This document shows, one piece after another, positions 942-63,817 of a stretch of 64,000 nucleotides of DNA (position 1 is the first letter of the stretch; each line of letters opens with the position of its first letter). Position numbers and translations under genes: made by a program. The notes below the pieces were generated by a model that saw only the letters and a list, made by a program, of their open reading frames with translations, was not told the DNA's origin and ran no database searches. The stretch comes from Eunapius fragilis (Eukaryota > Porifera > Demospongiae > Spongillida > Spongillidae): assembly GCA_963681505.1 (NCBI GenBank), contig OY811989.1:5094335-5158334 (forward strand), read 5' to 3'.

Positions 942-3900
942 GTATGCCATCCACAACTCGGGCATTGCCTTTATGCTGAAAAAGGTTAGAATTCATTCAG
1001 GTTTCCCCATCTGGTTCAGCATTTCTAGGGGCTCCTTGTCCCCCCGCCCCTTTATGTCCTGTAGCATGGCGAGACCATGGCAGATGTGCGGACTCATGAG
1101 TCTGCTTCAGTGAAGGACAACATTGCTGCACTTTATGGAGCTAGTGTGAGCAGGTAATGTAGTGTTGCTAGTGTGAGCAGGTGTGTAGTGTTGTTAGTGT
1201 GAGCAGGTGTATGTAGTGGTGCTGGTTTGAGCAGGTGTGCGTAATAGTGCTGGCGTGAGCAGGTGTGTAGCAATGGTGCTGGTGTGAGCAGGTGTGTAGC
1301 AATGGTGCTGGTGTGAGCAGGTGTGTAGTGTTGCTAGTGTGAGTGTTGTTAGTGTGAGCAGGTGTATGTAGTGGTGCTGGTGTGAGCAGTGTGTAGTGGT
1401 GGTGCTAGCCGTTATGACCCATCCATCAACAGGGAACTTCTCCACGTATCCTCCCAAAATTCAAAGCTTGGCTTCACTCTCGAGGGCTATGTCACCAATG
1501 CTAACTACTCGCAGAAGAAGCTGGAGTTTCTTCTATTCATAAACCGTATGATGACAATACCACCAATGTCCATGGATGAATTGGATAAATGTACTTTTGG
1601 CTTACAACCCAGATCGACTGGTCGATAGTTCAGCACTTCGCAAAGCGGTAGAGCTAGTGTATGGAGCCTACCTCCCTAAGAACACCCATCCCTTTGTTTA
1701 CCTGAGGTATGATGGGGGGTGGGGGGGGTGCAGTGGTGTGGAGGGAGAGGTGGAGTGGATGTGAGGAAGAGGTGTTGCATGTGAGGGGTGTGGTGTTTAA
1801 TGTAATGTGCTGGCTACTGGTGTTACCCCATTTGCAGCATCAATATCATTCCTTCCAACATTGATGTAAACGTGCACCCCACCAAAATGGAGGTTGGTGG
1901 AGAGGAGGCGGGGTCTATGAGTGCCCCCGTGACAACATCTCTGTACACAGGTTCACTTCCTGCATGAAGACATGATTGTGGAGGCTGTACAGAGGGCCAT
2001 TGAGGACCAGCTTCTCAGCTGCTCTACTTCCAGGACCTATTTTACCCAGACCCTGTTACCAGGTGCCCATGTCCCAGCTACCTTACCAGAGGAGGGTAAT
2101 GCAAGTACTGGTTCCAAGAAAGGTACTTATGACTTGCACCCAGGAAGCCTAAAAAACTGTCTGCCCTCTGATGTGTGCCATCTTGAATCCTTAGGACTCA
2201 CCCCTCTGAGGGAGAGGTTGGGAGGGAGAAGAGAGGAGGGGGAGAGAAAGAGAGGAAGGTCCTCCCCTCACATCCTCCCTCTCCCCTCCCATCCCCTCCC
2301 CTCCACTCCTTTTCTCTCCCCTCCCTACATGTATCATCCCTCCCTCCTTTTCTCTCCTCTCCCATCCCCTCTCCCATCCCTCCTCCCCTCCCTCCCTTTC
2401 TCTCTCTCACTTTCCCCTCTCCATCCATGTTCATAGACAAACCGCTGGCTTATGCCTACCATATGGTGCGCACAGACTCAAGGGAACGGACGCTAGATGC
2501 CTTCATGACGCCAAGGTCACTGGAGCAAAGCAGGGTCACAGGTGAGGAGCTTATGGAGGAGGTGGGACCATCTGACAGTGGGGCAGCCATGGAGACAACA
2601 ATGTCTGAACCTGTGGGTACTGAAGGAGAAGCAGAAGCTCTGGGGAAGAGGAGGCATGGTTCAGAGAGCAGTGAGAGGTATTTCACCTTATTGTCCATCA
2701 AAGGCTGGAGTTTTGTAATGCTGCAAGTTTGGCCCCTCATATTGTTAAAAGTGATATCATACCATTATTCATCCATTGATTGGTGTGCTGTTAGATGTCG
2801 GAGATATAATTTTACCTCTGATGGATAGTATGCTTTTAGAGTGTAATAAAAAGACTTAGTAACTTCATCTCTTTAAGCTTCAACATCAGGTGCAGAAGTC
2901 ATGCTGTTATACGTATCCTTCCCGAGCATTTAATGGCACTACCCATTTTCAGGAATTGAGGATGTTAACTTTGTATGTTCAGACATTCTGCGTCACAAAT
3001 CATCAGAGTTGTTAAGAGTTTGAAAACACATAGTATCATTGCAGCGAAAAGGGACCTAATGCGATATTATAAAATTTTCCAGGAAGGAGCATCAAAGTTG
3101 ATGCGTGCATTAAAGTGTATGAATAATTACACATTCAGGTCACTATAACTCCGTGCATAAGATACAAGTTGTAGAGGACATAGGTGTTTCTTAAGAGTAT
3201 CTAATAAAAACTTCAAAAAATATGCCTTAGGGCCCTTTTCGCTTCAACGATCCCATATGCACTTTTGGATTCCTCTAATGATCAAACTGTGAATTTTCTC
3301 TGTGACCAAGTTGGGACTGGCAATAGTTGGCCAGAGGGGGAAAGGTTTCTGCTCTGGGATCTCAATGATTTGACCTGGTAATGGGAAAATTAATTGCACT
3401 TGTAATGTTTAAAAAAAAAACAACAAAGCTTGCAGTTAGTATGGACTTGAATTATTCTAACATTTTTATCAATCCCATGTGCCCAGTCCCAAATATTTGT
3501 GATTGTTTTTATGTTCAGCTGTCCAGTGATGGAGCCCTCCAAGAGGAAAGCCAGGAGGAAGGAGGTCAAACTGACTAGTGTGCAGCACCTCCAACAGGCT
3601 GTTAGAAATAACCAGCACAGTGGTTAGTGTCATGTGATTACAGTTGCCTGTCACGTGACCCGCGGGTACCCCATTACTCAGGTTTAAGCCAGATCTTTCA
3701 GAATCACAAGTTTGTTGGGTGCGTGGACCAAACTAGGGCTCTGTTTCAGCATCAGGTAACCATGGTACATCGGTGTTCACTTCACTGGTATGCACTACTG
3801 CCTTGCAGACCAAACTGTACCTTGTAGACCTGACTAAAGTCACGTAGGTCATTATGTCGTCATTGGCCCATATGTATGGCTGTCGTTATGCTTGTTAGGA

Positions 3901-5243
3901 AGGAGATCTTCTATCAGCTGCTTCTCTTTGATTTCGGCAATTTTGGTTTCTTGCAGCTTTCTGTATGTTGCTTGGCAACTGCACCCACCTGTACTGTCAC
4001 TGCCCCACCCCCTTAGCCCCCTGCTCCAATCCATGAACTGGTTATGGTGGCACTGGAATCTGAGGAAAATGGTTAACCCCATCTCCACACACTGATCCTC
4101 CTCCCCATCTCTACACACATTGATCCTCCTCCCATCTCCACACACACTGATCCTCCTCCCCATCTCTACACACACTGATCCTCCTCCCCATCTCTACACA
4201 CACTGATCCTCCTCCTCCATCTCCACACACATTGATCCTCCTCCCCATCCGCAGGGTGGAAACCTGAGGATGGTCCCAAAGAGAAACTGGCTGAAGTATG
4301 AAGGGACTGGGAAGGAGGAGTTTTGTTGGAGGCCTCACTGTTAATAACCTATTCCTTATCCCAGTATGTCGTAGACCTTCTCAAGTCCAAAGCAGATATG
4401 CTCAAAGATTACTTTTCACTGGAAATAACACAAGTCAGTTACCGAAACCACAGCATCCCTTGTGACTGTGCAGTTGTTGTGTTGTTAGGATGGACACATC
4501 AGGAGTCTACCCATCTTGCTTCCATCACACTCACCCAACTTGGACTGCCTCCCAGACTTCCTGCTTCATTTGGCTACAGAGGTTTGCTAAGTGTACACAG
4601 GGTTAAATTATATGGCAATTTTTACTCCTGGGGATTGCTAGGCGGGTGCCTGGATTGGGACAGTTGAGCCTAAAACCCCCAAGACCCCAACTGCAACTAC
4701 CCTAGTGATGATACGTTGTGCCAACATAACCAGGAGCTCCATAGATGCCCGCATAGCATTACTATTTAGCTTAGTATTCCTCTCTTCTGCCCAGGTGGAA
4801 TGGGATGTTGAGGAGGAGTGCTTCCAAACGTTGGCCAGAGAGTGTGGCCTCTTCTACAGCCTTCGGTATGACCCTTTTCTCCTGGATTCATCAGACCCTA
4901 GTGACAGGCAAGGAAGTACCGAAGACCGTAGTTCACAAAGCCAGCAGGATACGTCATCATCAGCATCCATTGCTGAGTGTTCACAAGTACATCTTAGCTA
5001 CAAGCAATGTAACCAATCAATTAATCACACACGCACACACACACACACAATCACACATACAAACAGCAACAAAACAGTTCCTCGCTGTTATGCAAACGGC
5101 AACCATGGCGATGGCTAGTTGAACATGTCATATTCCCCACGCTTAGGACAGACTTTATCCCTCAGACCAAGATGGCAGAAGATGGCAGTGTGCTTGAGAT
5201 AGCTAATCTTCATGAGCTGTATAAAGTGTTTGAGCGTTGCTGA
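942..5243 (+). CDS. MLH1: MLH1 DNA mismatch repair protein, 3' portion (17 exons; 5' exons outside window)
   Basis: MLH1 pairs with PMS2/PMS1 as MutL-alpha, acting in the nucleus after MutS mismatch recognition. Exons placed by GT/AG sites and conserved blocks: 942-984, 1065-1153, 1433-1545, 1613-1706, 1838-1892, 1951-2122, 2437-2677, 3519-3622, 3682-3755, 3809-3843, 3899-3962, 4017-4071, 4255-4295, 4365-4433, 4489-4581, 4795-4986 and 5119-5243 (stop TGA). Together they cover human residues from about 183 to the end. The transducer domain has [16 protein letters not shown], then [20 protein letters not shown] and YFTQTLLPG. The linker has MVRTDSRE. The C-terminal dimerisation domain has [36 protein letters not shown] and [11 protein letters not shown]. 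It ends in LYKVFERC, matching the strictly conserved MLH1 FERC terminus. The N-terminal ATPase exons are not in this window. The 2678-3518 intron shows nothing recognisable. No disabling break is seen. Confidence 0.95.
1141..1410 (+). repeat. Intronic tandem copies of an MLH1 exon-intron junction
   Basis: About eight or nine degenerate copies of a 25-36 bp unit (GCTAGTGTGAGCAG followed by GTGTGTAG). The first copy is the real exon end, GCTAGTGTGAGCAG, followed by the donor GTAATG. The intron therefore carries several donor look-alikes of the exon's own last 14 bases. Confidence 0.8.
4080..4250. repeat. Short tandem repeat in MLH1 intron
   Basis: Five or six copies of a 28-30 bp unit containing CACACACTGATCCTCCTCCC between the exons ending at 4071 and starting at 4255. 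Confidence 0.8.
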
Positions 5244-5415
5244 ATAACTACAGCTCACCTCATGTGTCTTTGTACACCGCACATGTATCACTTCATCTTT
5301 CTAATAATGGAATGTTGCAGGCTGCTAACCATATAGGAGTTGCTCTTGGAGCTTACGGTTGAATAATATAATATCTCGGTGGTAAAAGACCTATGTGGGT
5401 GGGCATGGAAAGATG

Positions 5416-5421
5416 AATAAA
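5416..5421 (+). terminator. MLH1 polyadenylation signal AATAAA
   Basis: AATAAA lies 173 bp after the MLH1 stop and 20 bp before the convergent DDIAS stop codon. Cleavage 10-30 nt downstream would fall at or inside the DDIAS stop. Confidence 0.65.
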
Positions 5422-5440
5422 AAGATACAGTACAATGACA

Positions 5441-6804
5441 TCATGGGGTAAAGAGATCAGGGGAATGACCTCTGCATAAATCCACTTTGCTCTGGGGAGT
5501 GCTATGACAACCACTTGGTGCTAAAATTCTTCTTCGTAACACTTTTGATGAGACACAAGGGGTCACAAATTGGTCTCCGGACTGCTCCACATGGCTCCAC
5601 TGGGAGTGAGGTGTGCTGAACAGCTCTGGAGAAGTGCCATTTGTAGAGAAGACAGAAACACCATCATCGTCTGACAAACAAGAATTGGACCCTTGAAATT
5701 TTTCCATGTGCTGTGTGAGGTGGGAGGCACGACTGTGCTCACCAGGGTGAACTAGACTGTGCTCACCAGGGTGAACTAGACTGTGCTCACCAGGGTGAAC
5801 TAGACTGTGCTCAAAATGTTCCCATGCTCGTTGGCTAAATATGAGAGGTGACCAACACGAAGATGTTTGCTTCGGAGTGCTGCAGTCATCAGAGACAACA
5901 CATCCACACACATTCAGTTCGGACACAAGTGTTGTATCAGGTGTGGGTGTAACCAAGGGCACGTAAAATGGTGGACAATCCAAGGTACTGCCAGGATTGG
6001 TAGAGGTACCACTTGGGACCATTTCACCTGCCTCTGAAATAGACTTAAGTTCCACTACAGACAGGCCAGACAACCCTTCATCATGAGGCAAGCTCCATTG
6101 GGTAAGGCCAGACAACCCTTCATCATGAGGCAAGCCCCATTGGGTAAGGCTGACAGTGCTATCCCTGCGGTCTAAATATGGCGGTAAAATAGGACTGAGA
6201 GGAAATAGGGGCAGCTTCTGAAGAGCAGGAAATCTAGACTTCAGTACGGATAGGGCTGTGGATGATAAATGATCTCCAAGAACTTTGAGGCTGCAAGTTA
6301 TTAATGGTTGCAGTTCCCTCTGTCCACTCTGCTGAAGGAAATCAGAAAGACAAACCCTTCCTTCAGAGGAAGGGAACCGAAAATCAAAGGAGTTTCCTAC
6401 AAACACTGACTCCAGAATACTGTGAAGAAACTGTGATACGTCATCTAGTTCCAGATTCCTTCCTGTATGTGCCTTGTAAGCCTCTTTTACACAGCTGGAA
6501 TGGGAACACGATTGTCATAACACCCCCCACGTTCACGGTGCCCTAACCTGTGAAATTGCACCGCCGGGAGTCCGAAGATGTTGTTCAAAGATTCGCCAAA
6601 TACAGTCACATCGACACACGTTGATTCGTGGTCAGTAACATTGAGGATGACATAATATCTCAACGGAAGGTCGGCGTCTGGATATGACAAACTGCAGCTC
6701 TTACACGAATAGCTGTACCAAAGCGTGCCATGTAATGTCATACAGTTGAGGACGAGGTTATGTACCTTTCTCTCTGACTTTCCACTTTTCTTAGCTTCTT
6801 CCAA
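5441..6804 (-). CDS. DDIAS: DDIAS/Noxin-like OB-fold protein (DNA damage-induced apoptosis suppressor)
   Basis: Two coding segments are seen: about 6804-6548 and 6494-5441, joined across a 53-bp intron (donor after TTTCACAG, acceptor TTCCAG). The N-terminal half resembles the DDIAS RPA1-C-like OB-fold: two CxxC-like cysteines near SYSCKSCSLSY, then VTVFGESLNNIFGLPAVQFHR, split here by wording only as VTVFGESLNN and IFGLPAVQFHR. Exon 2 continues VSQFLHSILESVFVGNSFDF, the conserved block before the long disordered tail in vertebrate DDIAS. The tail is Ser/Pro-rich with three HSLVHPGE octapeptides and two LTQWxLPHDEGLSG repeats, and it ends PDLFTP. In vertebrates the protein protects cells from apoptosis after DNA damage. 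The first exon has no clear ATG in frame; an upstream TAA means the start is unresolved, and a further 5' exon is possible. The identification rests on motif order; the tail is not conserved. Confidence 0.75.
5728..5815. repeat. 24-bp in-frame coding repeat in DDIAS tail
   Basis: Three tandem copies of a 24-bp unit (CACCAGGGTGAACTAGACTG core) encode HSLVHPGE. A second, longer duplication at about 6061-6150 encodes the two LTQW/LPHDEGLSG copies. Both keep the frame, consistent with a disordered tail. Confidence 0.9.
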
Positions 6805-7095
6805 CAGTTATTGCACGCAGCATGGTAGCCGGACTGAGATTTAACCGCTAAAACTGTGCACAAACACGACATCGCTTGAATACAAATTCATTAAGCGATA
6901 CAGCTCTCAATAGGGTTAAAGAACTGCATTCTCCCCCCCCCCCCCCCCCCTCCCCCCCGACGCACTCGTCCCCAATAGTAGTACATTATTAGCTGTCTTT
7001 GAATGTTCTAAAATGTTTCTCTGACAGAAATGGTGTACAGATTTATTAAAACGACAATAATAATAATAAATCAAACGCCTATACTGTTCACTGGA

Positions 7096-24923
<17,828 letters not shown>

Positions 24924-44200: not shown

Positions 44201-47200
44201 ATATCGAAATACTTGACTCCTGCAGGAGTCATACATTGAAATACTTGACTCCTGCAGGAGTCATATACATTGAAATTCTTGAGTGACATACTTGACTCCT
44301 GCAGGAGTCAAGTATCTCCATGTATGACTCCTGAAGGAGTAAAGTTTGTCAGTATCACTGACTACTACAGGAGTCATATGTCAATATGTATGACTCCTGC
44401 AGGAGTGAGCAATCTCCATGTATGACTCCTGCAGGAGTCAAATATGTCACTATGAATGACTCCTGCAAGAGTCACGTATTTCAATATATGACTCCTGCAG
44501 GAGTGAAGTATTTCAATGAATGACTCCTGCAGGAGTCAAGAATATGTTATGTATGGCTCTTGCAGGAGTCAAGGATCTCCATACATGACACCTGAAGGAG
44601 TCAAGTATATCAGTATCAATGACTCCTTTAGGAGTCAAGTATTTCAATGTATGACTCCCGCAGGAGTCTAAAATTTCAATGTATGACTCTTGCAAAAGTC
44701 AAATATGTCTATATGTATGACTCCTGCAAGAGTCAAGTATCTCCATGCATGACTCCTGCAGGAGTCAAGTGTGTCAGAATGTATGAGTCCTGCAGGAGTC
44801 AAGTATGTCAATATGTATTACTCCTGCATGAGTCAACTATATATTTGCATGACTCCTGCAGGAGTCAAGTATGTCAGATTGGATGACTGCTGCAAGAGTC
44901 AAATTTGTCACTATGAATGACTCCTGCAGGAGTCAAGTACTTCAATGTATTACTCCTACAAGAGTCAAGTTTGTCAGTATGCATGACTCCATCAGGAGTC
45001 AAATATTTCAATGAAGGACTCCTGCAGGAGTAAAGTATGTCAATATGTATGACTCCTCCAGGAGTCATGTATCTCCATGCATTACTCCTGCAGGAGTCAT
45101 GTATGTCAGTCTGCATGACTCCTGCAGGAGTCAAATATATATTTCCGTGACTCCTGCAGGAGTCAAGTATGTCAGTATGCAAGACTCCTGCAGGAGTCAA
45201 GTATCTCAATGTATGACTCCTGCAGGAGTCAAGTATCTCCATGCATGACTCCTGCAGGAGTCAAGTATGTCTGTATGTATGACTCCTGCAGGAGTCAAGT
45301 ATGTCACTCAAGAATTTCAATGTATATGACTCCTGCAGGAGTCAAGTATTTCAATGCATGACTCCTGCAGGAGTCAAGTATTTCGATATGTATGACTCCT
45401 CCAGGAGTCAAGTATCTCCATGCATGACACCTGAAGGAGTCAAGTATTTCAGTATCAATGACTCCTACAGGAGTCATATGTCAATATGTATGACTCCTGC
45501 AGGAGTGAAGTATTTCAATGAATGACTCCTGCAGGAGTCAAGAATGTGAATATGTATGACTCTTGCAGGAGTCAAGTATCTCCATGCATGACACCTGCAG
45601 GAGTAAAGAATGTCAGTATCAATGACTCCTGCAGGAGTCAAGTATTTCAATGTATGACTCCCGCAGGAGTCAAGGATTTCAATGTATGACTCCTGCAGGA
45701 GTCAAATATGTCAATATGTATGACTCCTGCAGGAGTCAATTATCTCCAATCATGACTCCTGCAGGAGTCAAGTATGTCAGTAAGAATGCCTTCTGCAGGA
45801 GTCATATGTCAATTTGTATGACTCCTGCAGGAGTGAGCAATCTCCATGTATGACTCCTGCTGGAGTGAAATATGGCACTATGAGTGACTCCTCCAGGAGT
45901 CATTTATCTCCATGCATGACTCCTGCAGGAGTCAAGTATGCCAGTATGTATGACTCCTGCATGAGTCAACTATATGTTTGCATGACTCCTGCTGGAGTCA
46001 AGTATGTCAGTATGCAAGACTCCTGCTGGAGTCAAGTATCTCAATGTATGACTCCTGCAGGAGTCAAGTATCTCCATTCATGACTCCTGCAGGAGTCAAG
46101 TATGTCAGAATGTAAGACTCCTGTAGGAGTCAAGTATGTCACTCAAGAATTTCAATGTATGACTCCTGCAGGAGTCAAGTATTTAATTTATGACTCCTAC
46201 ATAAGTCAAGTATGATGATGTGTCTGACTCCTGCAGGAGTCAAGTATTTCAATGTATGACTCCTGCAGGAGTCAAGTATTTCAATATGTATGACTCCTGC
46301 AGAAGTCAAGTTAGTCAGTATGTATGACTTCTGCAGGAGTCATACATATATTTGCATGACTCCTGCTGGAGTCAAGTATGTCAGTATGCAAGACTCCTGC
46401 AGGAGTCAAGTATCTCAATGTATGACTCCTGCAGGAGTCAAGTATCTCCAAGCATGACTCCTGCAGTAGTCAAGAATGTCAGTACGTATGACTCCTGTAG
46501 GAGTCAAGTATGTCACTCAAGTATTTCAATGTATGACTTATGTAGGAGTCAATTATTTCAATTATGACTCCTGTAGGAGTCAAGTATATCAATATGTCTG
46601 ACTCCTGCAGGAGTCAAGTATTTCAATATATGACTCCTGCATGAGTCAAGTATTTCAACATGTATGACTCCTGCAGGAGTCAAGTATCTCCATGTATGAC
46701 ACCTGAAGGAGTCAAGTATGTCAGTATCAATGACTACTACAGGAGTCATATGTCAATATGTATGACTCCGGCAGGAGTGAGCAATCTCCATGTTTGACTC
46801 CTGCAGGAGTCAAATATGTTACTATGAATGACTCCAGCAGGAGTCACGTATTTCAATATACGACTCGTGCAGGAATGAAGTCTTTCAAGTATGCCAGTAT
46901 GTATGACTCCTGCATGAGTCAACTATAAATTTGCATGACGCCTGCAGGAGTCAAGTATGTCAGTATGCAAGACTCCTGCAGGAGTCAAGTATCTCAATGA
47001 ATAACTCCTGCAGGAGTCAAGTATCTACATGCATGACTCCTGCAGGAGTCAAGTATGTCAGTATGTACGACTCCTGCAGGAGTCAAGTATGTCAGTATGT
47101 ATGACTCCTGCAGGAGTCATACATATATTTGCATGACTCCTGCAGGAGTCAAGTATGTCAGTATGCAAGACTCCTGCAGGAGTCAAGTATCTCAATGTAT

Positions 47201-47496
47201 GACTCCTGCAGGAGTCATGTATCTCCAAGCATGACTCCTGCAGTAGTCAAGTATGTCAGTATGTATGACTCCTGCAGGAGTCAAGTATGTCACTCAAGTA
47301 TTTCAATATATGACTCCTGCAGGGGTCAATTATTTCAATCATGACTCCTGCAGGAGTCAAGTATATCAATATGTCTGACTCCTGCAGGAGTCAAGTATTT
47401 CAATGTATTACTCCTGCAGGAGTCAAGTATTTCAATATGTATGACTCCTGCAGGAGTCAAGTATCTCCATGTATGACACCTGAAGGAGTCAAGTAT
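44201..47496. repeat. Satellite A, block 2
   Basis: The same palindrome as in block 1, but spacers are mostly AGTATTTCAATGTA, AGTATGTCAGTATGTA and AGTATCTCCATGCA. A landmark, GTCACTCAAGAATTTCAATG, recurs at about 45303, 46137, 46513 and 47289 and marks a higher-order unit of several hundred base pairs. Confidence 0.95.
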
Positions 47497-47888
47497 CGGA
47501 AGTTTCGTTAGAAACTTCCATATAGGATTTGATCCCGACTATGAATGTCATTAAAAAAACGCGACCCGTCTGTAACAACACTCCCGACGATCGGGTCGTG
47601 TAGTATGTTTTAGCAATCGATCTTGAAGTCAAAAATCAGTAGTTTCGTTTTTGTTTCATGTCGCTGAACCGCGTGGTTGTTGAGAACAAGAGTGTACTGC
47701 CCGTCCTCGTACCCAGTCTCGGAACAAGGGGCGGGTCGTCTTCTCCTTCTTGCCCACGCATAACTCAGGACAGGAACATTTCTAAGCGATGAAAATTGCA
47801 CCAATAGCTTCAGAATCGGCTGGAGGACTCACTTTTATATAATATAATACTTTGATAAACAATCGACTATCAGCCTCCTATGTCTTGT

Positions 47889-48021
47889 TAGTCTCGTACC
47901 CAGACCGTCTATGACGTAAGCGATTATCGCTGTAAACACTACGTCCATACGTATGGACGTAGTGATTATACTATTTACAGCGATAATCGCTTACGTCATA
48001 GACGGTCTGGGTACGAGACTA
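47889..48021. mobile_element. 133-bp palindromic MITE with 9-bp target duplication
   Basis: The TIR starts TAGTCTCGTACCCAGACCG, the arms are about 48 bp and perfect, and a central palindrome ACTACGTCCATACGTATGG lies between. ATGTCTTGT at 47880-47888 and 48022-48030 is a perfect 9-bp target-site duplication, the length typical of Mutator-like elements. It is nested in the short foldback element. Confidence 0.88.
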
Positions 48022-48063
48022 ATGTCTTGTATAATTAAATGGATATGAAAAGAAATAAAGAAA

Positions 48064-48349
48064 ACAAGTAAATAAAAACATTCTCTACGATATAGTTGGT
48101 GGGATATAGGATTTGATTATGACATTGGTGGTGTAAAAAGCAAGGAAACAAGGTCTTATCAGAAGGGTAAATGTCATAGTCCTATATTTAGCACACAAAC
48201 AACACATGTCCTAGAAATGTGCTAAATATAGGACTATGTCATTTTCCCTTCTGATAAGACCTTGCTTCCTTGCTTTTTACACCACCAATGTCATAATCAA
48301 ATCCTATATCCCACCAACTTTCTCGTAGAGAATGTTTTTATTTACTTGT
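48064..48349. repeat. Foldback arm pair at the right end of the short element
   Basis: Two inverted arms of about 138 bp start and end with ACAAGTAAATAAAAACATTC and its complement. Arms differ at only about six positions. The tip reads CCTATATTTAGCAC and GTGCTAAATATAGG. Confidence 0.9.
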
Positions 48350-50847
48350 GTCAGTATCAATGACTACTACAGGAGTCATATGTCAATATGTATAACTCCG
48401 GCAGGAGTGAGCAATCTCCATGTATGACTCCTGCAGGAGTCAAATATGTCACTATGAATGACTCCTGCAGGAGTCACGTATTTCAATATATGACTCGTGC
48501 AGGAGTGAAGTATTTCAAGTATGCCAGTATATATGACTCCTGCATGAGTCAACTATATATTTGCATGACTCCTGCAGGAGTCAAGTATGTCAGTATGCAA
48601 GACTCCTGCAGGAGTCAAGTATCTCAATGTACGACTCCTGCAGGAGTCAAGTATCTCCATGCATGACTCCTGCAGGAGTCAAGTATGTCATTATGTATGA
48701 CTCCTGCAAGAGTCAAGTATGTCACTCAAGAATTTCAATGTATGACTCCTGCAGGAGTCAAGTATTTCAATTATGACTCCTGCAGGAGTCAAGTATGTCA
48801 ATATGTCTGACTCCTGCAGGAGTCAAGTACTTCAATGTATGACTACTGCAGGAGTCAAGTATTTCAATATTAATGACTCCTGCAGGAGTCAAGTATGTCA
48901 GTATGTATGACTCCTGCAGGAGTCAACTATATATTTGCATGACTCCTGCAGGAGTCAAGTATGTCAGTTTGTATGCCTGCTGCAGGAGTCAAATATGTTA
49001 CAATGAATGACTCCTGCAGGAGTCAAGTATGTCAGTATGTTAGTATGTATGATTCCTGCAGGAGTCGTACATATATTTGCATGACTCCTGCAGAAGTCAA
49101 GTATGTCAGTATGCAAGACTCCTGCAGGAGTCATGTATCTCAATGTATGACTCCTGCAGGAGTCAAGTATCTCCAAGCATGACTCCTGCAGGAGTCAAGT
49201 ATGTCAGTATGTATGACTCCTGCAGGAGTCAAGTATGTCACTCAAGTATTTCAATGTATGACTCCTGCAGGAGTCAATTAATTCAATTATGACTCCTGCA
49301 GGAGTCAAGTATATCAATATGTCTGACCCCTGCAGGAGTCAAGTATTTCAATGTATGACTCCTGCAGGAGTCAAGTATTTCAATATGTATGACTCCTGCA
49401 GGAGTCAAGTATCTCCATGTATGACACCTGAAGGAGTCAAGTATGTCAGTATCAATGACTACTACAGGAGTCATATGTCGATATGTATGACTCCGGCAGG
49501 AGTGAGCAATCTCCATGTATGACTCCTGCAGGAGTCAAATATGTCACTATGAATGACTCCTGCAGGAGTCACGTATTTCAATATATGACTCGTGCAGGAG
49601 TGAAGTATTTCAATGAATGACTCCTGCAGGAGTTAAGAATATCAATATGTATGACTCTTGCAGGAGTCAAGGATCTCCATACATGACACCTCCAGGAGTC
49701 AAGTATGTCAGTATCAATGACTCTTGCAGGAGTCAAGTATCTCAATGTATGACTCCCGCAGGACTCAAGTATTTCAATGTATGACTCCTGCAGGCGTCAA
49801 ATATGTCAAAATGTATGACTCCTGCAAGAGTCAAGTATCTCCATGCATGACTCCTGCAGGAGTCAAATATGTCAGTATCAATGACTCCTGCAGGAGTCAT
49901 AAGTCAATTTGTATGACTCCTGCAGGAGTGAGAAATCTCCATGTATGACTCCTGCAGGAGTTATGTATGTCAGAATGTATGAGTCCTGCAGGAGTCAAGT
50001 ATGTCAATATGTATGACTCCTGCAGGAGTCAACTATACATTTGCATGACTCCTGCAGGAGTCAAGTATGTCAGATTGGATGACAGCTGCAGGAGTCAAAT
50101 ATTTCACAATGAATGACTCCTGCAGGAGTCAAGTATTTCAATGTATGACTCCTATAAGAGTCAAGTTTGTCAGTATGCATGACTCCTGCAGGAGTCAAGT
50201 ATTTCAATGAATGACTCCTGTAGGAGTAAAGTATGTCAATATGTATGACTCCTCCAGGAGTCATGTATCTCCATGCATGAATCCTGCCGGCAGGAGTCAA
50301 GTATGTCAGTTCGTATGACTCCTGCAGGAGTCAAATATATATTTGCATGACTCCTGCAGGAGTCAAGTATGTCAGTATGCAAGACTCCTGTAGGAGTCAA
50401 GTATCTCAATGTATGACTCCTGCAGGAGTCAAGTATCTCCATGCATGACTCCTGCAGGAGTCAAGTATGTCAGTATGTTTGACTCCTGCAGGAGTCAAGT
50501 ATGTCACTTAAGAATTATTTCAATGTATGACTCCTGCAGGAGTCAAGTATTTCAATTATGACTCCTGCAGGAGTCAAGTATTTCAATGTATGACTCCTGC
50601 AAGAGTCAAGTATTTCAATATTTATGACTCCTGCAGGAGTCAAGTATGTCAGTATGTATGACTCCGGCAGGAGTCAATTATATGTTTGCATGACTCCTGC
50701 AGGAGTCAAGTATTTCAATGTATGACTCCTGCAGGAGTCAAATATGTCAATATGTATGACACCTGCAAGAGTCAAGTATCTCCATGCATGACTCATGCAG
50801 GAGTCAAGTATGTCACTATGAATGACTCCTGCAGGAGTCATGCATAG
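48350..50847. repeat. Satellite A, block 3
   Basis: Continuation of block 2 after the insertion, with the same spacer classes and the landmark GTCACTCAAG at about 48720, 49229 and, as a variant, 50505. It ends at a junction with inverted satellite C. Confidence 0.95.
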
Positions 50848-60329: not shown

Positions 60330-60570
60330 GATTGTAACACGTGTGTGTGTGTGCGCGCGCGTGTATGAATCTATGTATTTATGTGTGTATGTATCGATGA
60401 TCTAATTACATCAGTATGTCTGAGTACATGTATTTATGTGCTTGTGTAATTTTGATTTCAAATTGAACTCATGGGATATAAAGCCGTCCCGTATGTATAG
60501 ATAACATTTGAATGGAGAGAAAATGCATCCAACGAAAGTGGGAGAGTACCTTTTATCAGTTTAAGGTAAT
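60330..60570. other. Spacer with GT-rich start, no feature recognised
   Basis: A short GTGTGCGCGC tract followed by unique sequence up to the left hairpin of the large element. Confidence 0.5.
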
Positions 60571-60571
60571 C

Positions 60572-60593
60572 TGAACCTGCGGCAGCAGGTTCA
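60572..60593. promoter_or_regulatory. Left-terminal 22-nt hairpin of the large element
   Basis: A 9-bp perfect stem with a GGCA loop. The equivalent in the short element (47498-47519) has the same stem and loop lengths with a GTTA loop but a different stem sequence. Confidence 0.75.
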
Positions 60594-61074
60594 ATATAGG
60601 ATTGATTGAGGGTTGATGAATGTCATTAATAAAACTTCACTAGCGTCTGGACGGACAACGGAGAAACGGATCGCTTATCTCTTTATTGCGATAGAATGAG
60701 GGTACAACGACCTACAGTTCTACGTTGGTACCGTGTCATAAAACGGTGTGGTTATAGAGAAACAAACAATTTCCTGTTTCTCGTGCCCAGTCCTAAAATA
60801 ATTCTCCATCGTCGTCGTCGTCGTCTTCTTAGGAAGGTATAACTCGAGCTAGGAACGGTTTAGAAGGACGGGAATAGTACTAATCGCTTCGAAATTTACC
60901 GGCACGTTATCCATACATGTCATATAGACACATATCAAGTTCTATTTAATAATGTATGTAATAGATATTTATTAATAATTTTAGGCAGTATAAATACTCT
61001 AACCTGCACAAAAAATATTTGGTGTTCCTATCGCAGTTTAGTTGTTACTTTGGCTAGTGAAGTTGTTTTTCTAA

Positions 61075-62457
61075 AAATGCCTTCGCGTAATCAAAAGAAG
61101 AGATCTAAGCAACGAGCGAAAAGCAAGACGAGAACAAAGCTAAAGCCCGAGCGCTCTACAAGGCCGATCCCGAAAAGAAGAAGGCCTCTGTACGCGACAG
61201 CTACAACGCAGATATTGAATCTAAGCGATCTGCTAAAAGGCGGCGATATAAAGAGGACCTTGAGGAGAACCGTGCTGCTAAAAAGCGGCGATACGAAGAG
61301 GACCTCGAGGAAAACCGTGCTGCTAAAAGGCGGCGATATGAAGAGGACCTCGAGGGGAACCGCGCTGCTAACAGGCGGCGATATGAAGAGGACCTCGAGG
61401 GGAACCGTGCTGCTAAAAGGCGGCGATATGAAGAGTACCTCGAGGAGAATCGTGCTGCTAAAAGGCGGCGATATGAAGAGGACCTCGAGGAGAACCGTGC
61501 TGCTAAAAGGCGGCGATATGAAGAGGACCTCGAGGAGAACCGTGCTGCTAAAAGGCGGCGATATGAAGAGGACCTCGAGGAGAACCGTGCTGCTAAAAGG
61601 CGGCGATATGAAGAGGACCTCGAGAAGAACCGTGCTGCTAAAAGGCGGCGATGTGAAGAGGACCTCGAGGGAAACCGCGCTGCTAACAGGCAGAAATACG
61701 AGGACAATTCAGCTGCCATTAAAGCATCTAAAAGGAGTCGGTATTGGAATGACCCCGCTGTCCGATTGGCTAAATGTGCTTCCGAGAGGACGCGGTACCG
61801 CAGGGGTCACAGCACTACCACTACCACCCAAAGGTATGTTATGGCATGTTGTATTAACATTAAAAAGCTGTGCATGCAATATTTGTAGAGCATAGTCGGG
61901 CGGTGTTTGGTCGGGCTTGTCACCCTTCTACCTGACCAAACGCGGTAGTAGGGCCCGCCCGACAATGTACAGCACGGATCTGCACAAAACCATTCACTTC
62001 ACATGTAAAGCATGCATGGTGACTCAACTGTGTGTACAGTAATAGTGTCTATTGTTTTACTAATCTGATGTATAAAAAGGCTTCCTTATTTGAAGGCTTC
62101 CTTATCTGTCTAGCCATGTACATGTGTTGCAACTGTATGAATATAATTGCAGTTGCAAGGGCTGATAACTATAGGTGAAATGACAATAACTGCAACCATA
62201 TCCTGCTCCCATATAGCTACTCCTTGTATGAACCCAAATCTTATGCACTAATGGAGTATAATGGTGGTCTTGAAAAAGCTATTCTTAGGGATAGTGAGCT
62301 TCTAAGTGAAGTAAATGATGCCTTTTGTAAGTCTCATCCATTGCTAGCTCAAAAGGTTGTTACTAGATCTGCCACCATAAGGTACTTCTACTCTCACATT
62401 TATGTAAAATCAGACATTCTGCCCACACTCATAACGCTGCAGACCTTGTCCACACTC
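61075..62457 (+). CDS. Element-borne gene with 45-bp coding repeats, two exons visible
   Basis: From ATG 61078 the frame reads a basic start (PSRNQKKRSKQRAK). The neighbouring frame, open from about 61108, reads KARALYKADPEKKKAS, then nine or ten 15-residue repeats of the type AKRRRYEEDLEENRA (about 61243-61690). It ends AKCASERTRYRRGHSTTTTT with a donor at AAAGG/TATGTT (about 61831). A second exon (about 62217-62382) reads SYALMEYNGGLEKAILRDSE and NDAFCKSHPLLAQKVV before donor AAG/GTACTT. Repeats of the KADPEKK/RRYEED kind are known from many sponge and cnidarian proteins, often of transposon origin; function unknown. One missing base in the A4 run at 61119-61122 would explain the split between start and repeat frame. 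Further exons or an early end are possible. The longest ATG-initiated ORF (LLKGGDMKRTSRR) is the shadow frame. Confidence 0.5.
61240..61690 (+). repeat. 45-bp coding repeat, about ten copies
   Basis: The unit is GCTGCTAAAAGGCGGCGATA, TGAAGAGGACCTCGAGGAGA, ACCGT. Copies are 90-100 percent alike, with synonymous and GAG/GGG changes. Because 45 is divisible by three, both strands and several frames stay open. Confidence 0.95.
61890..62215. other. Intron of the element-borne gene
   Basis: AT-rich, with a short inverted motif GGTCGGGC...GCCCGCCCGAC around 61905-61965. No gene. Confidence 0.4.
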
Positions 62458-62700
62458 ACCTGAAAACATATCCTTATCAATCTACATGGTGCCATGTTAT
62501 CCCAGATCTACATGCAGTCATGTAGTTCACTTCCTGGGTTCCCACACTATCCAGCTTTACTTCATGTAGGCTACACCTCCATGTTTAGATTGGAGCATTT
62601 TCAAATTTGACCAATAAAATTTTAGCACATGCCGTTAATATGATGGAATTGGACCAATAGAATTATAGCACAGTCTGCACACGTGTTAAGGCTTTGCAGG

Positions 62701-62708
62701 TATAAAAG
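62701..62708 (+). promoter_or_regulatory. TATA box of the small downstream ORF
   Basis: TATAAAAG lies 156 bp before the ATG at 62864, the clearest TATA motif in the window. Transcription would start near 62730. Confidence 0.55.
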
Positions 62709-62863
62709 TCAGTCATGCACCCGCTGAATTATAGTGCACTTTGAAAAAAGAGGTAAGAATTTAATAATATACTCTATGTGGATTCACGTGTAAACTTGCT
62801 TGAAAAAAGAATTAGGTAAAAAATTTTAAAATCATACTCTCTGTCTCTGTCACGTACATGTAG

Positions 62864-63233
62864 ATGGCAGCTGAAGACCTAACTGGTTTTTTTTTATCAA
62901 GAGGGGTCTGTGGAGGAAGAGGATGACATACATCCTCCGACTCCTCCCCTTCACCCCGCCACCTTCAGAAGCCCCGCCACTCCTACCACCACCAGCAGCA
63001 GCGCTACCCCCGCCGGCACCACCAGCGCTGCCCCCGCCGGCACCACCAGCACTACCCCCCCCCCCAGCCCCCCCGGCACCACCAGCGCTGCCCCCGCTAC
63101 CACCGCCGCCTGTGCTCCCTCCCTGGCCTGCATGGCCACTGCCACCCTGGCAGAACGCAGCATGGCGGGGAGGCCGAGGAGGAGGACGTCCCCGCAGGAG
63201 ACGAGGGCGCGGGCGAGGACAACTAATAATTAA
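62864..63233 (+). CDS. Small Pro/Thr/Ala-rich protein with basic tail, frame broken at a T run
   Basis: ATG 62864 reads MAAEDLTGFF and then a stop 20 codons on. From 62898 another frame reads QEGSVEEEDDIHPPTPPLHP, a Thr/Ala/Pro-rich stretch, and MAGRPRRRTSPQETRARART before TAA at about 63231. One T fewer in the T9 run at 62887-62895 would join them, so the break may be a homopolymer error or a real inactivation. A third frame gives a poly-Pro and RGG-rich reading (GGRGGGRPRRRRGRGRG), which is an alternative. The tract TTTTTTTTTATCAAG could also be a splice acceptor. ATTAAA at 63266 is a possible polyadenylation signal. No family recognised. Confidence 0.4.
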
Positions 63234-63521
63234 TACTACAAATTCATATAATAATAATTATTATTATTAAAGTTATTTATTGAAAATGATACTACATATA
63301 CAATATTTACAGTTTTAAGCTACGCAATTTTACTAAACAAAAAACAATACACTGGAACGGAGAAGGTGAGGAGACTAACATCCAGTTGCCATTGAACGGG
63401 ACAGCAGAGCTCTGGCATTCGCTCTAACTAGGACCAGGTTTAACCTGCCATAGAGAGCCGAAGTGACCTGGGACTTGCAACAATTTGATCTAATTGCCAA
63501 CGGTGAAAAAAAACCTATGAA
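63234..63521. other. 3' flank of the small ORF
   Basis: An ATTATT-rich stretch with ATTAAA at 63266-63271, then unique sequence up to the foldback. No gene. Confidence 0.45.
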
Positions 63522-63817
63522 ACAAGTAAATAAAAACATTCTCTAACGAGAGAGTTGATGGTATATAGGATTGACCAATGGTGGTGTAAAAAGCACGGAA
63601 ACAAGAGTGACAGAAATTTTACTCGAAAATTGAAATTGGCCTATATTTAGCACGCTCACAAAATAACAGCGCATGCCTGAGTAATGTGCTAAATATAGGC
63701 CAATTTCAATTTTCGAGTAAAATTTCTGTCACTCTTGTTTCCGTGCTTTTTACACCACCATTGGTCAATCCTATATACCATCAACTCTCTCGTTAGAGAA
63801 TGTTTTTATTTACTTGT
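63522..63817. repeat. Foldback arm pair at the right end of the large element
   Basis: Two arms of about 137 bp pair essentially perfectly. The outer part (ACAAGTAAATAAAAACATTC), the ATATAGGATT block, GGTGGTGTAAAAAGCA and the tip CCTATATTTAGCAC are shared with 48064-48349. The sequence between them is not shared, yet still pairs within the element. Confidence 0.92.

Follow-up and report, generated by a model that had tools for sequence, protein, structure and literature searches.

The sponge Eunapius fragilis harbors a large, recently active Helitron family with a compensated 5'-terminal hairpin, a feature known from Helitron2, here combined with an inverted repeat outside the hairpin and with a palindromic 3' end. 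We describe this family from two elements in a 64,000-nucleotide (nt) stretch of the genome, hereafter the window (C19:5094335-5158334), and from searches of the 218.9 Mb assembly of 24 contigs. Both elements very probably belong to a Helitron family (rolling-circle, HUH/Y2 Rep-helicase) as non-autonomous copies, since they lie between A and T, with an empty site free of duplication for one of them, and share their ends with copies encoding Rep, Pif1 and OTU. How Helitron proteins find and cut the 5' end is, to our knowledge, poorly understood; the studied model, Helraiser, belongs to the type that has no 5' hairpin. With about 2,100 left ends matched by pattern, six stem classes occurring in nature and copies that are nearly identical, the sponge family supplies a natural series of mutants with which recognition of structure versus recognition of sequence becomes directly testable.

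Two window elements and their genomic family

A first-pass annotation, made from the letters of the window, had described two elements that share a left module, a right module and perfect 9-bp stems, and a check of the sequence finds both elements and every motif it named. With their ends corrected, the elements run TC...CTTG (60570-63816 and 47496-48348) and lie between A and T, one T being ambiguous. Each opens with TC, a 9-bp stem and a GNNA loop; next comes a 12-14-bp repeat, found again in inverted orientation close to the right end, and both right modules end TTTATTTACTTG. Their features are as follows.

60570..63816, + strand: probable non-autonomous Helitron copy, family A, TC...CTTG, with flanks A and T; homologous to the Rep-helicase (RepHel)-bearing loci L069, L070 and L071
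60571..60593, + strand: 5'-terminal hairpin A, C + TGAACCTGC / GGCA loop / GCAGGTTCA, from folding and covariation; perfect 9-nt arms at 60572-60580 and 60585-60593
60594..60605, + strand: 5' subterminal inverted repeat A, ATATAGGATTGA, from an inverted-repeat search
61077..61888, + strand: remnant of open reading frame 1 (ORF1) of the family A copy, a 45-nt / 15-amino-acid repeat, KRRRYEEDLEENRAA; the frame is interrupted in this copy and stays open for 185 amino acids in L069
62371..62373, no strand: internal-deletion junction with 3 nt shared; L070 position 1215 joins 7838 in the alignment
62864..63233, + strand: proline-rich ORF remnant, 172 amino acids in L070
63522..63817, + strand: right-end palindrome A, arms 63522-63653 and 63686-63817 (132 nt, 100% complementary), 32-nt loop
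63765..63776, - strand: 3' subterminal inverted repeat A, ATATAGGATTGA, 40 nt from the 3' end, from an inverted-repeat search
63786..63799, + strand: small 3' hairpin A, TCTCT/CGTT/AGAGA, at 17 nt upstream of the 3' end; its fold is weak
47496..48348, + strand: second probable non-autonomous copy, family B, inside a tandem array, with a perfect empty site
47497..47519, + strand: 5'-terminal hairpin B, C + GGAAGTTTC / GTTA loop / GAAACTTCC, from folding; perfect 9-nt arms at 47498-47506 and 47511-47519
47520..47533, + strand: 5' subterminal inverted repeat B, ATATAGGATTTGAT, from an inverted-repeat search
48064..48349, + strand: right-end palindrome B, arms 48064-48195 and 48218-48349 (132 nt, 96% complementary)
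48296..48309, - strand: 3' subterminal inverted repeat B, ATATAGGATTTGAT, from an inverted-repeat search

When 47496-48348 is removed, the joined flanks match the array units at 46694 and 49419 over 50 of 50 nt, a perfect empty site, single but represented by two identical array units, from which the family B copy is seen to have inserted between A and T and to have left the target unduplicated. The array itself, a tandem series of a palindromic unit (GACTCCTGCAGGAGTC...) at about 44300-50400 of the window, hosts the family B copy and supplied this empty site. Among 54 distinct left ends in the loci examined, a set partly drawn from pattern-listed places, ATC stands at the boundary in 49, TTC in three, GTC in one and ACC in one. 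Left ends fetched by similarity, and so not chosen by pattern, have AT before C in all 19 that were printed in register, from 30 loci.

Within the window, ATATAGGATT with at most one mismatch has 10 matches against 4.6 expected, little above chance (1 of 100 shuffles is as high); the case rests on the genome-wide counts. A search of the whole assembly gives 1,781 sites for ATC-N22-ATATAGGATT (control 6) and 3,697 for the right mark ATGTTTTTATTTACTTG (control 1). The sister pattern ATC-N22-ATATAGGTTT has 333 sites (control 6), and ATATAGGATT-N(8-16)-ATGAATGTCATTAA, which does not require the hairpin, has 1,448 places (control 0). From 1,204 first-look candidates, 40 right modules were scored, and every one matches the window copy at 99-100% identity, so the spread was recent.

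Left and right modules are linked in the same order. Over the first 4.92 Mb of contig C1, holding 54 left ends and 33 exact-mark palindromes, such a palindrome lies within 4 kb on the correct side of 22 of the 54 left ends and on the wrong side of one; adding six ATATAGGTTT left ends gives 24 of 60 against one of 60. Similarly, among the best 40 left and best 40 right modules, a right module falls within 10 kb on the correct side in 21 of 40 cases and on the wrong side in two, one of the latter within a nested group on C1. The idea of a single mobile family is borne out by this linkage, the empty site and the RepHel copies with the same ends. In the nested copies at G000:C1:6980194-6984082, a family A element lies beside or inside another in opposite orientation, together with a further left end, an insertion into its own kind.

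The genome holds 91 matches to Pfam Helitron_like_N, and we read three RepHel loci, picked because such a match lay close to a module of either side. L069 combines the left hairpin, the open 185-residue ORF1 and Rep and helicase parts in two frames, with 200 N and its right end not reached; L070 has broken Rep-helicase pieces, the proline-rich ORF and the palindrome; L071, on C2, has the palindrome and an open 1,877-residue Rep-helicase-OTU frame that extends beyond the start of the locus. RepHel sequences accordingly lie between the same ends as the non-autonomous copies, with left end and Rep in L069, and Rep and right palindrome in L070 and L071. The L071 protein matches Helitron_like_N (E = 1.4e-25), PIF1 (1.2e-20), Pif1_2B (2.8e-9) and OTU (2.8e-5), and its helicase part matches Helraiser in the PDB (7lcc, 9.7e-26, phmmer). 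It contains APHYH, YVTGY and GVGGTGKS, which we take to be the HUH, Y2 and Walker A motifs. A DDE or tyrosine-recombinase element was considered and rejected: RepHel is present and neither type appears in a Pfam scan of five linked-locus proteins, no genome-wide search for either having been made.

The longer window copy had been proposed as the parent form, a role it does not have. It aligns to L069 on the left and then to L070 on either side of a gap at about 1215-7838, with a second gap of about 200 nt directly before the palindrome. Relative to L070, about 6.6 kb including the Rep-helicase is gone, about 3 nt are shared at the main junction and the remaining frames are broken, so that this copy is an internal-deletion derivative.

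Two further observations concern neighboring elements. Several other RepHel families (L048-L068), mostly 61-91% identical to L071 and including several near-identical open copies, are possibly other active Helitrons; for the two copies, on the listed part of C1, of sister RepHel families 84% identical to L071 (1405918 and 1777642), the right mark ATGTTTTTATTTACTTG was not found at the expected distance. Inside the family B copy, at window 47880-48030, lies a 133-bp inverted-repeat element (TAGTCTCGTACCCAGACC...) with a 9-bp direct repeat, ATGTCTTGT, on its flanks, presumably an inserted Mutator-type miniature inverted-repeat transposable element (MITE).

The 5' hairpin and the right-end palindrome

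Folded as single-stranded DNA, hairpins A and B reach -9.8 and -8.2 kcal/mol, and none of 200 shuffles of either is as good. In the first 100 of the 1,781 ATC-N22-ATATAGGATT sites, all on C1, the stem pairs at 9/9 positions in 88, 8/9 in 10, 7/9 in one and 6/9 in one, and the loop is GNNA in 97. Six perfect stem classes occur, namely TGAACCTGC, GGAAGTTTC, GAGAGTTAC, AGGAACTAC, GGAACCTGC and, among the ATC-N22-ATATAGGTTT sites, GGAAGTCTC. Two of these, AGGAACTAC and GGAACCTGC, occur once each among the 100 listed sites, and GGAACCTGC and GGAAGTCTC are each one pair away from another class. A search with both outer stem bases not G yielded no new perfect stem class (29 matches, control 5); on inspection by eye, the matches are chance sites, the arm of the right end or known classes in decayed copies.

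For covariation, we used 22 distinct rows, comprising the 21 distinct strings of the ATC-N22-ATATAGGATT list and one ATC-N22-ATATAGGTTT string, with other ATATAGGTTT variants not counted. Across these rows, 95.5% of cells are paired and seven of the nine pairs have changed on both sides; the covariation score is 0.610, compared with 0.227 when shuffled (none of 500 shuffles reaches 0.610) and at most 0.093 for slid partners. The 5' hairpin is kept by base pairing, not by its letters, as the first-pass annotation had argued, and its further suggestion, that a folded single strand of DNA is recognized, is plausible. The outcomes it had named as damaging, copies lacking the hairpin and modules usually apart, are not what the listed stems (88 of 100 fully paired) and the side-specific palindromes described above display.

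A sample drawn independently of the hairpin, 88 ATATAGGATT-N(8-16)-ATGAATGTCATTAA places up to 9.52 Mb compared with the ATC-N22-ATATAGGATT list, has ATC at the expected place in 74 left ends. Among the other 14 (L078 and L112-L124), three carry a hairpin paired at 9/9 or 8/9 positions behind TTC, and one an 8/9 hairpin behind ACC. Some left ends of the GAGAGTTAC class carry shortened yet pairing hairpins (L114, L115 and L124, at C1:1920966, 2188523 and 7573591), that of L114 having 8 bp and a 3-nt loop, as if stem and loop had shortened together. In L078 (C1:2632880-2633840), the 5' half of the left hairpin is missing and the right end is intact, which may reflect an insertion truncated at its 5' end or damage after insertion.

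The right module is a near-perfect palindrome of about 290 nt, in effect two inverted 3' termini, or a double inverted terminus. With DNA parameters, palindrome A folds at -159.5 kcal/mol (z = -34.7). The 3' subterminal repeat lies 39-40 nt from the element's 3' end; the small 3' hairpin is weak in family A, where 25 of 200 shuffled versions of the 53-nt stretch give an equally good fold, and better in family B (4 of 200). The 100 listed right marks include 33 facing pairs, spaced at 256-290 nt, and 34 marks that are unpaired at exact match; around 20 unpaired marks, a partner with 1-3 changes is present in nine loci and none in 11. We compared arms over 110 nt in the 13 of 14 given sources that yielded a palindrome. 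Within a copy, the two arms are 95.5-100% identical in 12 of 13 copies and 84.1% in one; when families A/A2, B, C and F are compared with one another, a given arm shows 66-86% identity, and for the close families A and A2 the figure is 90-92%. The arms therefore undergo concerted evolution, due to selection, copying, or both.

The palindromes examined are right ends of larger units, since 32 of 37 in the loci examined have exactly one recognizable inner side (T-rich, mostly TTTC...) and a unique outer side, the outer flank starting with T in 31 of the 32; in the other five, the sides are changed or unclear. In two of 21 left/right pairs, the palindrome is reversed in orientation with respect to the left end, consistent with arms that pair and invert. 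One candidate solo palindrome resembling Heltir or ATon, L008, was rejected, because its inner flank continues into a family A left module, making it an internal-deletion copy. Against a general rejection of solo copies, 11 of 33 palindromes in the first part of C1, most of them not read, are without a left end within 4 kb, and solo palindrome copies may exist.

Proposed mechanism and competing explanations

In the mechanism we consider likely, Rep would bind the 5' hairpin in its folded form, where single-stranded DNA is exposed, and would nick at A^TC, two bases outside the stem, after which the helicase would unwind rightwards. The palindrome and small 3' hairpin would stall the helicase, leading to a second nick at CTTG^T, and the released strand would circularize and insert at another AT. 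Because structure would be what is read, a 9-bp stem mostly closed as C-GNNA-G, the stem letters could drift by paired changes.

Several results weigh against a Helitron whose hairpin is selected as structure. On the protein side, phmmer matched the helicase of Helraiser alone and not its Rep domain; the frame is broken in two of the three RepHel loci (L069 and L070), and that of L071 runs off the locus start. No copy was read end to end, and the full-length element of about 11-12 kb is therefore pieced together from parts of different copies. Head-to-tail end junctions, a possible footprint of a circle, gave no exact match with a pattern that omits the GGAAGTCTC class, a result that does not exclude a circle. 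As for the hairpin, 10 of the 88 left ends sampled independently of it are shortened, truncated or poorly paired, and two covariation measures are weak, the 'further pair types' measure being reached by 336 of 500 shuffles and the count of pairs changed on both sides by 12 of 500. The stem covariation could also come partly from arm-to-arm copying instead of selection.

The last point belongs to a rival account that is compatible with Helitron identity and that we consider rather unlikely, in which hairpin and palindrome are kept by mutational copying, arm templating arm through fold-back repair or gene conversion. It draws on the co-evolution of the palindrome arms over 110 nt, too long for base-by-base reading by a protein, on the flipped palindromes, and on one of the 100 listed hairpins with an inverted loop, TAAC for GTTA. 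Copying alone, however, would not fix a hairpin length of 9, the GNNA loop (97 of 100 listed) and a place beside the cut across stem classes, and it therefore fits the palindrome well and the short hairpin less well.

It is improbable that the structures act in RNA, with the left hairpin serving as an RNA motif and the palindrome as a source of double-stranded RNA that silences or protects: the 132-bp stem would, if transcribed, be a strong RNA duplex, as its DNA-parameter fold indicates, but 650-900 bp copies and RepHel-bearing copies alike have both structures placed exactly at their ends. That a left repeat and a foldback element or MITE are unrelated neighbors by chance can be rejected almost outright: in its favor are the partnerless right marks (34 of 100 listed at exact match, 11 of 20 fetched loci even with 1-3 changes) and the 32 of 54 left ends whose correct side holds no exact-mark palindrome within 4 kb, but against it stand the 22-to-1 preference for the correct side, a perfect empty site of the whole unit, and an inverted repeat that matches between both ends of each window copy.

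Relation to known Helitrons

The family is best read as a Helitron. It has the RepHel of the Helitron superfamily, an HUH and two-tyrosine Rep joined to a Pif1-type helicase, with HUH and Y2 recognized by motif only. The first-pass annotation, which had taken the family to be undescribed, was wrong or incomplete here, as the family belongs to this known superfamily and a compensated 5' hairpin has already been described in Helitron2 (PMC3627910). The family mixes traits of Helitron1 (TC, A|T) with a 5' hairpin like that of Helitron2.

Like Helitron1 and its representative Helraiser (PMC4778049), the family has a 5' TC, A-T insertion without target duplication and a RepHel with a Pif1-type helicase; unlike Helitron1, which lacks a 5' hairpin and ends CTRR, it has a 5' hairpin, ends CTTG and carries the 290-nt palindrome. 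In Helraiser, the 5' end is essential, cleavage is seen on single-stranded DNA and a 3' hairpin is the termination signal (PMC4778049). With Helitron2 (Bao and Jurka 2013, PMC3627910), for which pairing of the ends was proposed, it shares a hairpin at the 5' terminus that has undergone compensatory mutations, short, asymmetric inverted repeats close to either end, and a 3' repeat upstream of a small 3' hairpin. The Helitron2 5' repeat, however, lies 0-2 bp from the end as part of the hairpin, whereas the sponge repeat starts 24 nt in, just inside of the hairpin; Helitron2 targets sites after TTTT, whereas the sponge family uses A|T and adds the long 3' palindrome (PMC3627910). Nor was a copy of the stem seen at the right end of family A, unlike the Helitron2 end scheme (PMC3627910).

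Other structured Helitrons share parts of this architecture. FoHeli of Fusarium (PMC5148889) has hairpins at the 5' or both ends, asymmetric inverted repeats and RepHel, but ends TCAG...ATTTT or TGCCT...CTCCTGT, uses other target sites and, in the available text, comes with no mention of a long 3' palindrome. Helentrons, with HINE and DINE-1 (PMC4067079), resemble the family in subterminal inverted repeats, structured ends, a reported OTU protease and many small non-autonomous copies; they differ in their TT target and apurinic/apyrimidinic (AP) endonuclease, where the sponge family uses A|T and a Pfam scan of five proteins (E<=0.001) found no endonuclease family. A Helitron end that is a palindrome of about 290 nt, or that evolves concertedly, is not described in the available parts of the open-licence literature, including PMC5148889, PMC3627910, PMC4067079, PMC4778049, PMC6431247, PMC6544945 and PMC3422177, which does not establish its absence from print.

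Maize Heltir, with inverted repeats resembling Helitron 3' termini, and mosquito ATon, with terminal inverted repeats and AT insertion (both PMC3422177), come close to the right module, but in the sponge the inverted 3' pair forms the right terminus of a larger element, one that has a true 5' end as well as a partner coding for RepHel. We tentatively suggest that the family may be a distinct lineage between Helitron1 and Helitron2, in which Rep would read the 5' end as a folded hairpin (a C-GNNA-G loop on any stem) and the 3' terminator would be a self-templating 290-nt double terminus. If so, one protein could move families that differ in the letters of their stems.

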